This document shows positions 25,502 to 28,007 of a stretch of DNA of 33,725 nt, one piece after another. This stretch comes from Nitrospirae bacterium RBG_16_64_22 (lineage in GTDB: Bacteria > Nitrospirota > RBG-16-64-22). Numbering within the stretch: the first letter of the stretch is position 1; every line of letters starts with the position of its first letter. Below the pieces are notes generated by a model. The model was not told where the DNA came from. It did no database searches and saw only the letters and a program-made list of their open reading frames with translations. The translations under genes were made by a program, and so were the position numbers. The DNA lies in NCBI GenBank assembly GCA_001803795.1, contig MHEK01000041.1, positions 1 to 33,725 on the forward strand, written 5' to 3'.

Positions 25502-26111
25502 GCGGATGAGAATCGGGGTTCTCTGCTCCGGCCGGGGGTCCAACCTCCAGGCGATTCTCGACGCCTCGCGCGACCCGGCCTACCCGGCCGAGGTTGCCGT
25601 TGTCATAAGCGACAACCCGCGCGCCTACGCGCTCGACCGCGCCCGCGCCCGCGCCGTCCCCGCCGAGGTGATCATCCCCGCGTCGTTCCCGGACCGGATC
25701 CAGCACGATCTGGCCGTCGCCCAGCGCCTGAAAGAATACGGCGTCGGGCTCGTCGCCCTGGCGGGGTACATGAGGATCGTCTCCCCCCAGTTCATCCGCC
25801 GCTTTCCCGGCCGGGTCATGAACATCCACCCCGCGCTTTTGCCGTCCTTTCCTGGTCTCCACGCCCAGAAGCAGGCGGTCCTCTACGGAGTGAAGGTGTC
25901 GGGCGTCACCGTCCACTTCGTGGACGAAGGAGTCGACACGGGACCGATCATCCTGCAAGTCCCCGTCGCCGTGGCCGAGGAGGACACGGAGGAGTCCCTC
26001 TCGGCGCGAATCCTCGAGCACGAGCACCGGGCGTATCCCGAGGCCATCCGCCTCTTCGCCGAGGGCCGAATCAGGGCCGAGGGCCGGCGGGTGTGGATCA
26101 GGCGGTCTTGA
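25491..26111 (+). CDS. purN: Phosphoribosylglycinamide formyltransferase
   Basis: PurN transfers a formyl group from 10-formyl-THF to GAR. The 206-residue protein has LCSGRGSNLQAILDA at the N-terminus and the active-site segment MNIHPALLPSFPG with GVTVHFVDEGVDTGPII downstream (Asn, His and Asp of the family). I chose ATG 25491, with AAGGGGGG six bases upstream; ATG 25506 is also possible. It is the last gene of the operon before the accessory island. Confidence 0.95.
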   Translation: MPGERMRIGVLCSGRGSNLQAILDASRDPAYPAEVAVVISDNPRAYALDRARARAVPAEVIIPASFPDRIQHDLAVAQRLKEYGVGLVALAGYMRIVSPQFIRRFPGRVMNIHPALLPSFPGLHAQKQAVLYGVKVSGVTVHFVDEGVDTGPIILQVPVAVAEEDTEESLSARILEHEHRAYPEAIRLFAEGRIRAEGRRVWIRRS

Positions 26112-26136
26112 ATATTCCACTCAGATGGGGCATAAT
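26108..26136 (+). promoter_or_regulatory. Predicted sigma-70 promoter for hicBA module 1
   Basis: TTGAAT (26108-26113), a 17-bp spacer and CATAAT (26131-26136). It overlaps the end of purN and would start transcripts near 26143, so the GTG at 26180, not the ATG at 26135, is the likely hicB start. Confidence 0.5.
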
Positions 26137-26179
26137 GCAAAAAAAGGGCTGCGCCGAATTCGGCCGGGAGACTGACGTC

Positions 26180-26425
26180 GTGTTCACAGAATACATCCAG
26201 GCGGCGCTTGAAAAGGCGGAGTACAAGAAACTGGACGATGCGACCTGGTTTGCCCAAATCCCCGGCTTTGAAGGCGTGTGGGCGAATGGCAAATACGTCG
26301 AGGAATGCAGAAAGGAGTTGGTCGAAGTCCTGGAGGAGTGGCTTGTTCTCAAGCTGCGGGACGAGGACTCCATTCCCGTTGTCAAGGGCATCGGCATTCG
26401 CGTCAAGGAAATCACAACAACCTGA
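26180..26425 (+). CDS. HicB-family antitoxin (module 1)
   Basis: The 81-residue protein (N-terminus FTEYIQAALEKAEYKKLDDA) matches short HicB antitoxins, with the core TWFAQIPGFEGVWANGKYVE and a C-terminal EVLEEWLVLKLRDED helix. It should neutralise the HicA encoded two bases downstream. GTG 26180 has GGGAG nine bases upstream and gives a family-like N-terminus. This stretch is visibly more A+T-rich than the operon before it, which suggests acquisition. Confidence 0.85.
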   Translation: MFTEYIQAALEKAEYKKLDDATWFAQIPGFEGVWANGKYVEECRKELVEVLEEWLVLKLRDEDSIPVVKGIGIRVKEITTT

Positions 26426-26427
26426 AG

Positions 26428-26640
26428 ATGCCTTCCGTCTCGAGGAAGGAGCTTATCAGAAAATTCAGGGCGCTGGGATACTTCGGGCCTTTTTCGGGCG
26501 GCAGGCATCAGTTCATGATTCAGGGCTCAAAGAAAATCCGCATTCCGAATCCACATGGAAGCGGAGACATCGATATCAGTCTGTTGAAGGAAATACTCAA
26601 ACAGGCAGGTATTGACCGAAACGCGTGGGAACAAGCTTAA
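26428..26640 (+). CDS. HicA-family mRNA-interferase toxin (module 1)
   Basis: The 70-residue protein folds as a dsRBD-like HicA toxin that cleaves mRNA. The catalytic His lies in FSGGRHQFM, in the usual G(S/x)(H/R)H context. The C-terminal segment reads ISLLKEILKQAGIDRNAW. The gene begins two bases after the hicB stop, antitoxin first. Only three bases follow its stop before the tRNA-Ala fragment. Confidence 0.87.
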   Translation: MPSVSRKELIRKFRALGYFGPFSGGRHQFMIQGSKKIRIPNPHGSGDIDISLLKEILKQAGIDRNAWEQA

Positions 26641-26643
26641 CGT

Positions 26644-26695
26644 GGGGGGTTAGCTCAGCTGGGAGAGCGTCCCGATTGCATCGGGAAGGTCGTGG
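26644..26695 (+). pseudogene. Truncated tRNA-Ala (anticodon TGC), 5' two-thirds only
   Basis: GGGGGGT plus a complete D-arm (TAGCTCAGCTGGGAGAGCG) and an anticodon arm TCCCG-ATTGCAT-CGGGA (anticodon TGC) are intact. The sequence stops after AGGTCGTGG, in the T-arm, and the GIY-YIG reading frame starts there. The first 26 bases are identical to those of the intact tRNA-Ala at 26958. It cannot form a functional tRNA alone. Confidence 0.85.
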
Positions 26696-26949
26696 AACTT
26701 ATGGAAGAGGTCTACACCGTCTACGTTCTTCAAAGCGAGAAGGACGGATCCTTCTACATCGGCCAAACAAGGAACTTGACCGGAAGACTCATCCGTCACA
26801 ACGCGGGCGCGGTCACATCCACAAAGGCAAGGCGCCCCTGGATCGTTGTCTGGGGCCAGACTTTTCCCGATCGGAGCGAAGCGATACGCAGGGAAAAAGA
26901 ATTGAAGAAACAAAAGAGCAGGAGGTTTCTCCAAGATTTGATAAAGTAA
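26692..26949 (+). CDS. Small single-domain GIY-YIG nuclease
   Basis: The 85-residue protein is a stand-alone GIY-YIG domain of the UvrC/URI-like type. The motif YTVYVLQ...GSFYIGQT supplies the two signature Tyr-containing segments, with the catalytic Arg in NLTGRLIRHNAG and the Glu in EAIRREKELKK. The C-terminus RRFLQDLIK is typical. Such small GIY-YIG proteins are considered mobile or repair nucleases. The frame opens at GTG 26692 inside the tRNA fragment; ATG 26701 is the next start (GGA six bases upstream). It ends eight bases before the intact tRNA-Ala. Confidence 0.85.
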   Translation: MELMEEVYTVYVLQSEKDGSFYIGQTRNLTGRLIRHNAGAVTSTKARRPWIVVWGQTFPDRSEAIRREKELKKQKSRRFLQDLIK

Positions 26950-26957
26950 ATACCATT

Positions 26958-27033
26958 GGGGGGTTAGCTCAGCTGGGAGAGCGCTAGAATCGCACTCTAG
27001 AGGTCGTGGGTTCGATCCCCATACCCTCCACCA
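26958..27033 (+). tRNA. tRNA-Ala (anticodon CGC)
   Basis: The 76-nt gene includes an encoded CCA. The acceptor GGGGGGT pairs with ACCCTCC with one G-T pair. The anticodon stem CTAGA/TCTAG frames ATCGCAC, with anticodon CGC. The T-arm is GTGGG-TTCGATC-CCCAT. All arms close, so it should be functional. It directly follows the GIY-YIG gene. Confidence 0.95.
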
Positions 27034-27064
27034 TTAAACTCCCGAACCCAGCCAGGATCTCCCC

Positions 27065-27103
27065 GGAGAGCGTCCCGATTCCTGATCGGGATACCGTCCA
27101 CCA
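27065..27103 (+). pseudogene. tRNA-Ala fragment (D-arm end, anticodon-like hairpin, acceptor end)
   Basis: GGAGAGCGTCCCGATT is identical to 26662-26677 of the truncated tRNA. It is followed by a perfect TCCCGAT-TCCTG-ATCGGGA hairpin and then ATACCGTCCACCA, which matches the 3' end of the intact tRNA at 12 of 13 positions. The T-arm and 5' acceptor are missing. An A-run follows. Confidence 0.75.
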
Positions 27104-27134
27104 AAAAAAATTTATCCAAGGGGAGGGACGACGG

Positions 27135-27335
27135 ATGAAGCTCCACGTCGTGATCGAACGTGACGAACTCGGCTACTTTGTCGCTGAAGTTCCCGCTCTG
27201 CCCGGTTGCCTGTCCCAGGGGACCACGGAGCAGGAAGCGTTGGCGAACATCAAGGAAGCGATCGAAGGCTGGCTTGAGGTCATGGAAGAAAAACACGCGA
27301 TCGATCGGACAAAGGCGGTCGAGGTCCTTGTATAG
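27135..27335 (+). CDS. HicB-family antitoxin (module 2)
   Basis: The 66-residue protein (MKLHVVIERDELGYFVAEVP, then ALPGCLSQGTTEQEALANIK) is a typical short HicB with the D-x-x-G-Y-x-V-x-x-P-x-L-P-G-C motif. No separate DNA-binding domain is present. ATG 27135 has GGGAGGG eight bases upstream. The TAG stop shares its G with the GTG start of the toxin gene. Confidence 0.9.
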   Translation: MKLHVVIERDELGYFVAEVPALPGCLSQGTTEQEALANIKEAIEGWLEVMEEKHAIDRTKAVEVLV

Positions 27336-27556
27336 TGACCGAGCCTCTAAGGCTTTGTTCCGGAACCGAGGCGGTCCGAAAGTTCCAGAAGGCCGGTTGG
27401 ACGCTCGCGCGGCGGAAGGGTTCCCACGCCATGCTTACCAAGCCCGGTTATCCCTGGACCCTTTCAGTCCCGCAACACGGAGAGCTTGGCTTCGGTCTCT
27501 TGCGAAAGCTCCTCCGCCAAGCCGGTCTCTCGATCGAGGAGTTCAACGGTCTCTAA
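27335..27556 (+). CDS. HicA-family mRNA-interferase toxin (module 2)
   Basis: The 73-residue protein has the HicA pattern: TEAVRKFQKAGWTLARRKGS, the catalytic His in KGSHAML, SVPQHGELGFGLLRKLLRQA and the end GLSIEEFNGL. The GTG 27335 start overlaps the hicB stop by one base. It is only distantly related to the module 1 HicA (different His context and C-terminus), so the two pairs are not recent duplicates. Confidence 0.9.
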   Translation: MTEPLRLCSGTEAVRKFQKAGWTLARRKGSHAMLTKPGYPWTLSVPQHGELGFGLLRKLLRQAGLSIEEFNGL

Positions 27557-27581
27557 TCCGTCAACCGGTCTCCGTGTCTTC

Positions 27582-28007
27582 TCAGGCCGTCCCCGCGTCG
27601 GAAACCAAGAAGTATCCCCTGTCCTCCCTGACCTCCGGCGAAAGCTCTTTGTGGGGGGCGTGCAGGGTCGGGTAGTGCTGGAGCAGAAGCTCCCGCAACC
27701 CCGAGTAGTTGTCGCCCGAAAGATAGCGCCGGATCGGGACCGTCGTCCCTCCCTCGACGGAATGGGCGTAGAAGTAGACCTCGATCACGGGTTCGAGACG
27801 TTCCGGGGCGATCTGCTCCGCCCACTCCATCAATGCCTCCGCGTCCACCCAGTACGACACGACCGGGTCCTCGACGGCAAACCCGTGCGCCTTCTCCATA
27901 TAGTAGCGCCACAGTTGGAACTCCTCCAGCGCCACGTACCGGACGTTGTCCACGTCCGAGCTTCCGTTCTGCCTCAGCCGGCACTTCACCAACTTGATCT
28001 TCCGCAT
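27582..28007 (-). CDS. Protein of unknown function
   Basis: The 141-residue soluble protein begins MRKIKLVKCRLRQNGSSDVD and is rich in Tyr, Trp and acidic residues (for example LWRYYMEKAHGFAVEDPVVS). No signal peptide or membrane segment is visible. GGGAGGGGAT precedes ATG 28007, a strong coding sign. It lies 54 bp after the lipoprotein on the same strand, so it may be the last gene of the pil operon. I do not recognise a family. Confidence 0.7.
   Translation of the reverse strand: MRKIKLVKCRLRQNGSSDVDNVRYVALEEFQLWRYYMEKAHGFAVEDPVVSYWVDAEALMEWAEQIAPERLEPVIEVYFYAHSVEGGTTVPIRRYLSGDNYSGLRELLLQHYPTLHAPHKELSPEVREDRGYFLVSDAGTA

Follow-up and report, generated by a model that had tools for sequence, protein, structure and literature searches.

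The window, meaning the whole stretch of 33,725 nucleotides of Nitrospirae bacterium RBG_16_64_22 that was analysed, contains a small GIY-YIG nuclease gene between a partial and an intact copy of tRNA-Ala, followed by a second tRNA remnant (Table 1). The two larger copies share 27 identical bases (26643-26669 and 26957-26983), after which come diverging anticodon arms and then the 9-mer AGGTCGTGG, which occurs exactly twice in the window with starts at 26687 and 27001 and a spacing of 314 bp. The first copy ends past tRNA position 52, where it runs on into the nuclease ORF. Its Infernal score of 28.9 bits lies slightly below the gathering score of 29, and ARAGORN gives a call only for the second copy. 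The palindrome TCCCGATTGCATCGGGA of the first copy (TCCCGAT-TGC-ATCGGGA) forms a perfect 7-bp stem with a 3-nt loop, and the displaced 3' end downstream adjoins a flank that is common to the empty site of the congener G001. The tRNA/nuclease unit is bracketed on either side by a HicB/HicA-like toxin-antitoxin pair.

Table 1 Features of the tRNA-Ala/nuclease locus and its flanks in the window
Feature	Coordinates	Strand	Remarks
HicB-like and HicA-like genes, upstream flank	26093-26640	+	outside the unit
Displaced tRNA-Ala 5' copy, whole	26644-26695	+	51/52 identical to congener G002
Displaced 5' part: acceptor 5' strand and D arm (tRNA positions 1-26)	26644-26669	+	identical to 26958-26983
Palindrome TCCCGATTGCATCGGGA of the displaced 5' copy, replacing its anticodon arm	26670-26686	+	between tRNA positions 26 and 44
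AGGTCGTGG (tRNA positions 44-52), homology end of the displaced 5' copy	26687-26695	+	
GIY-YIG nuclease gene	26704-26949	+	PF01541, 61 bits; 81 aa from ATG; alternative GTG start at 26692 possible
Intact tRNA-Ala(CGC)	26958-27033	+	ARAGORN; Rfam 61.9 bits; 76/76 identical in G001 and G002
Displaced 3' remnant, whole tRNA piece	27065-27103	+	D-stem end, palindrome and ATACCGTCCACCA
D-stem end GGAGAGCG of the displaced 3' remnant	27065-27072	+	
Palindrome TCCCGATTCCTGATCGGGA of the displaced 3' remnant	27073-27091	+	in place of tRNA positions 27-64
Displaced tRNA 3' end ATACCGTCCACCA; intact counterpart ATACCCTCCACCA	27091-27103	+	same C-to-G change in G002
HicB-like and HicA-like genes, downstream flank	27136-27556	+	outside the unit

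The initial annotation had read 26696-27009 as a nuclease-bearing insertion that restores the interrupted tRNA gene, with the 9-bp repeat as its signature. The repeat and its spacing are as described, the ORF does match GIY-YIG nucleases, and the proposed join does yield a complete tRNA-Ala(tgc) that ARAGORN calls. A nuclease also stands where a recombinase might be looked for, as the GIY-YIG gene is the sole ORF of the unit and a recombinase gene is absent. The repeat is no insertion signature; it is merely the stretch of tRNA positions 44-52 common to both copies, one portion of a longer tRNA duplication. What had been taken for a genuine UGC anticodon arm is the perfect palindrome. The core idea of a nuclease unit within a tRNA gene gains from the intact tRNA left in place, the partial copies outside it and the single-tRNA alleles of relatives, and it has to give up its boundaries. 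Because of the 3' remnant at 27065-27103, which had been overlooked, the unit is better read as an ORF plus an intact tRNA between two displaced parts.

Rfam searches over 26000-27700 with E values up to 1 returned tRNA matches only and no group I intron ribozyme, and a group I intron with a homing endonuclease was rejected accordingly. An assembly artefact was likewise rejected, as the layout is shared by independent genomes, some of whose records carry no metagenome-bin label (Roseivirga L025 and Algoriphagus L030).

The unit in congeners and in its own genome

Chance does not account for the repeat in the window, since its layout is found again in one congener, in another genome of the class and at dozens of further loci. 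The congener G002 (98% complete) has, in order, a displaced 5' half with TCCCGATCGCATCGGGA, a nuclease 61% identical to that of the window over 80 aligned residues, an intact tRNA-Ala(CGC) and a displaced 3' copy with TCCCGATTGCATCGGGA, which carries the same acceptor C-to-G change as in the window. In the palindrome loop of G002, CGC takes the place of the window's TGC. The same order is found in G003, from the same class, with a different palindrome, AGCCGATGTGGCATCGGCT, that is identical in its two displaced copies.

No match to the nuclease was found in the congener G001, which shows purN, one tRNA-Ala(CGC) identical at 76/76 positions to the intact copy of the window, and then, immediately downstream, the HicB-like flank; a contig end lies close downstream, and the upstream flank is not homologous to that of the window. 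Rather than being an empty site, G001 could have lost the unit secondarily. An uninterrupted allele in relatives, as the initial annotation had anticipated, is thus seen in G001 and also in Algoriphagus, and two complete tandem tRNAs lacking the ORF, the case named as speaking against insertion, were not seen, G001 having a single tRNA. The supposed exchange of UGC for CGC does not hold. The allele of G001 and the palindrome loop of G002 both read CGC, so that CGC is the ancestral anticodon and the loop triplet is TGC or CGC depending on lineage. A pattern search of G000-G003 gave no other tRNA-Ala(UGC); these are drafts, and rRNA-linked tRNAs are frequently missing from draft metagenomic genomes.

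Between the window and G002, synonymous divergence is far from uniform, with a pS of 0.91 (pN 0.29) in the nuclease gene and of 0.32 in purN, 0.34 in HicA and 0.54 in HicB. Identity is 98-100% in the tRNA borders of the nuclease gene (5' half and tRNA), 70/75 over 5' half, palindrome and leader, and 139/224 over the remaining ORF. By its pN and pS the nuclease gene is under purifying constraint. As it is synonymously saturated while its neighbours are not and its tRNA borders are almost unchanged, the cassette has probably been swapped between lineages, with unusual mutation as an alternative. When 26704-26949 is compared with the locus L132, similarity drops inside the first 60-100 bp of the nuclease gene, which suggests a recombination border.

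Two further loci of the window's own genome carry related sequence. Directly before a tRNA-Ala(GGC) on C60 (L016, C60:13800-15800, at 700-900 of the locus) lie two 91-bp repeats without an ORF, which are palindrome-bearing 5' tRNA parts. On C61 (L004, at 464-701) a truncated GIY-YIG ORF shortly after tRNA-Asn(GTT) looks like a decayed nuclease unit.

A nuclease family beside tRNA and tmRNA genes

The window nuclease exceeds the PF01541 cut-off of 22.6 bits with a score of 61 and belongs to a family of single-domain proteins of 81-85 aa, in which the catalytic residues Y11, Y22, R32 and E68 are invariant among 15 tRNA-associated homologues. Its AlphaFold model (pLDDT 92.5) matched 1zg2 (UPF0213; E 1.8e-4) and 6sei (Slx1; E 7.8e-4) in Foldseek, with much weaker structural matches to I-TevI and UvrC. 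By this model the protein resembles UPF0213/SLX1-like members of the GIY-YIG superfamily, the closest to it in both fold and sequence, and its nuclease activity is predicted. To our knowledge, UPF0213/SLX1 proteins are stand-alone or SLX4-dependent, and we know of none within tRNA genes. Slx1 acts on branched DNA, and one Slx1 structure holds hairpin-like DNA (PMC9071465).

Scanning the genome collection for relatives of the window protein gave 27 loci, mostly adjoining a tRNA, and a profile built from 15 tRNA-adjacent nuclease proteins found 3-17 copies in each of 19 genomes. A tRNA or tmRNA lies at most 250 bp away from 44/69 copies, on the same strand in 43/44. Among copies scoring at least 75 bits these figures are 29/38 and 29/29. 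Several of the copies without such a neighbour are further units in tandem arrays; at L024, L030 and L219 tandem units are 97-100% identical. The cassettes span Bacteroidota, Acidobacteriota, KSB1 and the phylum of the window, and their sites are tmRNA and roughly a dozen isotypes of tRNA. In the window's phylum the best eight loci examined (L051-L058) all adjoin a tRNA and weaker ones do not. A tmRNA followed by the nuclease is found in three copies (L235, L238, L239), and at L239 the 3' end of the tmRNA is repeated past the nuclease ORF. The nuclease lineage follows the tRNA isotype, with 29 isotype changes on the tree of 63 loci, whereas none of 300 shuffles gave fewer than 41; only this overall test was used, as the tree rests on few columns and has many open forks.

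Scans of viral contigs gave one irrelevant match in one and none in the other, and protein searches gave 4 phage and 5 plasmid matches, all distant (<60% identical). With so few and such distant matches a phage or plasmid origin was rejected. A distinct GIY-YIG clade (L222, L234, L236) lies away from tRNAs, amid dispersed palindromes of the CTTCGACAAGCTCAG type.

The displaced copies have a strong polarity. At 60 loci with an intact tRNA, probed with tRNA positions 1-26 and 44-end, partial copies upstream of the intact tRNA retained the 5' terminus at 23 loci and the 3' terminus at 0, and those downstream retained the 3' terminus at 32 loci and the 5' terminus at 1 (Fisher p 8e-15, related loci being not wholly independent). 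Partial copies flank the intact tRNA on both sides at nine of these loci. The nuclease stands before the intact tRNA, as in the window, or, more commonly, after it, and many loci in which the tRNA comes first have no upstream 5' part. The cassette is thus a single-domain GIY-YIG gene beside an intact tRNA, with a 5' part outside upstream and a 3' part outside downstream. Such polarity is expected if units insert within or at a tRNA gene, whereas random decay of tandem duplicates predicts none.

Alleles of a single site also differ, in that the insertion is missing from G001 as compared with G000 and G002, and from part of a series in Algoriphagus. Among the species of that genus examined, the tRNA-Asp site upstream of accA is empty in ten and holds one to three nuclease units in G104, G118 and G133. 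Other species have, as several alleles, ORF-less tRNA copies bearing palindromes: full-length copies in G126, 87-bp tandem pieces in G141 and a bare remnant in G136. The filled allele retains an intact tRNA identical in sequence to the empty allele. In G141 (L284), five tandem short units each consist of a T-arm part, a palindrome, the acceptor 3' strand and a terminator, and the nuclease gene is absent.

Possible origin of the cassettes

From the arrangement of these sequences we lean, with some caution, towards a widespread family of small chromosomal cassettes that would enter tRNA and tmRNA genes in a homing-like manner and spare the host by way of one whole tRNA. The nuclease would cut the DNA of a tRNA gene, probably as a cruciform or a single-stranded cloverleaf, given that the proteins closest to it in structure have branched DNA as their substrate. 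Repair of the break from a cassette-bearing copy, with tRNA sequence as the homology arms, would copy the cassette in, as in homing. A complete tRNA would be restored within or beside the cassette, through which the host would survive, and the displaced tRNA copies would afterwards be inactivated. The model is weakened by the lack of any recoding in the intact tRNA: if the nuclease cuts the tRNA sequence itself, this copy should remain open to attack. The missing upstream 5' parts at many loci in which the tRNA comes first also speak against insertion, as do the displaced copies of G126, which are full-length, lack the ORF and fit tandem duplication.

The stem-loops of displaced copies are exchanged for short palindromes. 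Of 75 junctions at which a displaced copy extends as far as the anticodon arm, 46 show a new perfect hairpin there, against 8% expected from shuffling. Where tRNA sequence lies on both sides (66 hairpins), the hairpin is in the anticodon arm in 47 cases, the T arm in 11, the D arm in 8 and the acceptor in 0, and 22 hairpins at 17 loci and in four isotypes replace exactly positions 27-43, the anticodon arm. In the homing-like model, incisions at the bases of arms and an exchange of hairpins could have replaced whole arms by palindromes. It is nearly as easy to accept as to doubt that the palindromes are instead independent small dispersed repeats, which gather in dead tRNA copies by stem-loop replacement without any part being played by the nuclease. 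The palindrome most frequent in displaced copies, TCCCGA-TCGGGA, is dispersed in the genus as TCCCGA(N2-8)TCGGGA (21, 16 and 18 copies, against 1, 0 and 1 for a control pattern). It is abundant in genomes where the nuclease is absent (16 in G001, against 0 for the control, and 17 in G036), which means that the palindromes are not solely made by the nuclease and rules out that their spread requires it. Palindromes of this kind also form a helix within the 23S rRNA gene of the window's own genome (L249, C58:28401-28416) and lie at the midpoints of long inverted repeats (L252 and L258). Taken alone, independent repeats would leave the association of nuclease and tRNA and the displaced halves unexplained; they are compatible with the homing-like model in all but its arm-swapping step, and parts of this and of the following explanations may be true alongside it.

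Perhaps a function maintains the displaced halves. They could, for example, serve the nuclease mRNA as leader or terminator or act as an RNA decoy, or their swapped arms could stabilise the unit by leaving direct repeats too short to recombine. From the sequences at hand a maintained function seems somewhat unlikely. The higher identity of the 5' half, palindrome and leader between the window and G002 (70/75) than of the rest of the ORF (139/224) would agree with it, as would the hairpins of the window, which leave its tRNA homology in separate blocks, 27 and 9 bp long. Such conservation could, however, stem from conversion by the intact tRNA or from a common cassette border, and the palindromes vary among lineages.

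Alternatively, a tRNA with a resident nuclease could duplicate locally, with one copy selected and the rest degrading, so that neither insertion nor homing would be needed. Units of near-identical sequence at L024, L030 and L219, the ORF-less arrays of full-length pseudo-tRNAs in G126, and the short tandem units of G141 and of the own-genome tRNA-Ala(GGC) locus all favour this explanation. We nevertheless regard tandem duplication with decay as unlikely, as it does not predict that 5' parts lie upstream and 3' parts downstream, and explains neither why a single nuclease family keeps turning up across several phyla, at tmRNA and roughly a dozen isotypes of tRNA, nor why synonymous saturation is restricted to the nuclease gene. 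Amplification of the SegB kind, in which a break beside a tRNA leads to tandem copies that raise tRNA dosage and help against tRNA-cutting toxins, the inactive copies being leftovers, has a precedent in SegB of phage T6, a tRNA-linked GIY-YIG enzyme that acts in this way by homologous recombination (PMC13096335), and would suit the tandem units common in this family, but is very unlikely here, since the surveyed arrays retain one or two intact tRNAs with the extras inactivated and dosage therefore unraised, the fold is closer to Slx1/UPF0213 than to I-TevI, and phage and plasmid matches are few and below 60% identity.

Returning to the homing-like model, its most far-reaching form would have a structure-selective, SLX1-like nuclease recognise the DNA cloverleaf of tRNA and tmRNA genes, copy its own gene in, leave one whole tRNA and incise the bases of arms, so that stem-loops would be exchanged for palindromes and short palindromes thereby spread in bacteria. 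This would make the cassettes a new class of mobile unit and a natural cleave-and-rescue system. In its entirety we hold this form to be improbable.

Relation to known mobile units and significance

Phages T4 and T6 encode SegB, a GIY-YIG homing endonuclease that is free-standing and has its gene linked to tRNA genes (PMC13096335). SegB shares with the cassettes a GIY-YIG catalytic domain, a gene beside tRNAs of many isotypes and tandem tRNA-nuclease segments; displaced half-tRNAs and arm swapping do not figure in the passages on SegB consulted. The cassette nuclease differs in being chromosomal, about 80 aa long, UPF0213/Slx1-like and without a separate DNA-binding part. Integrase elements in tRNA and tmRNA genes also use both kinds of target, restore the tRNA through the att site and leave an intact tRNA on one side and a partial copy on the other (PMC9897764). 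The cassettes, in contrast, measure about 0.3-0.4 kb, encode a nuclease and no recombinase, and have displaced copies that are 5' parts, 3' parts or both, with palindromes. REP sequences associated with RAYT (TnpAREP), a Y1/HUH enzyme (PMC2817692, PMC8266576), likewise place a nuclease gene between short palindromes. Here, however, the enzyme is of the GIY-YIG and not the Y1 HUH type, the palindromes sit within tRNA arms, and palindromes of the cassette type are abundant where the nuclease is absent (G001 and G036).

The insertion at mitochondrial atp6/ORF360 of Allomyces (Paquin and Lang) reportedly combines an endonuclease ORF with a segment that restores an essential gene, the displaced segment being left outside. 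This is the same combination as in the cassettes, although in a protein gene of a fungal mitochondrion, and we know of no palindrome swapping in that case. The small dispersed repeats of cyanobacteria and the Rickettsia palindromic elements are short palindromes inside structured RNA or coding genes; unlike these, the cassette palindromes go together with displaced tRNA copies that neighbour a nuclease gene. A search of the open-access literature found no paper linking GIY-YIG cassettes, tRNA halves and palindromes or swapped arms in bacteria, and the nuclease cassettes, which seem to invade tRNA genes, are apparently an undescribed family.

The cassettes account for some false or fragmentary tRNA calls, among them the apparent tRNA-Ala(UGC) in the window, and for some small ORFs annotated as "GIY-YIG nuclease family" that adjoin tRNAs. 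The replacement of arms by palindromes offers a testable handle on how short palindromes enter structured RNA genes. If the homing-like model is right, a selfish nuclease would be able to invade single-copy essential RNA genes with neither intron, intein nor integrase, by means of a whole gene copy that is left or carried, and the tRNA and tmRNA genes of several phyla would hold a natural counterpart to synthetic cleave-and-rescue drives.
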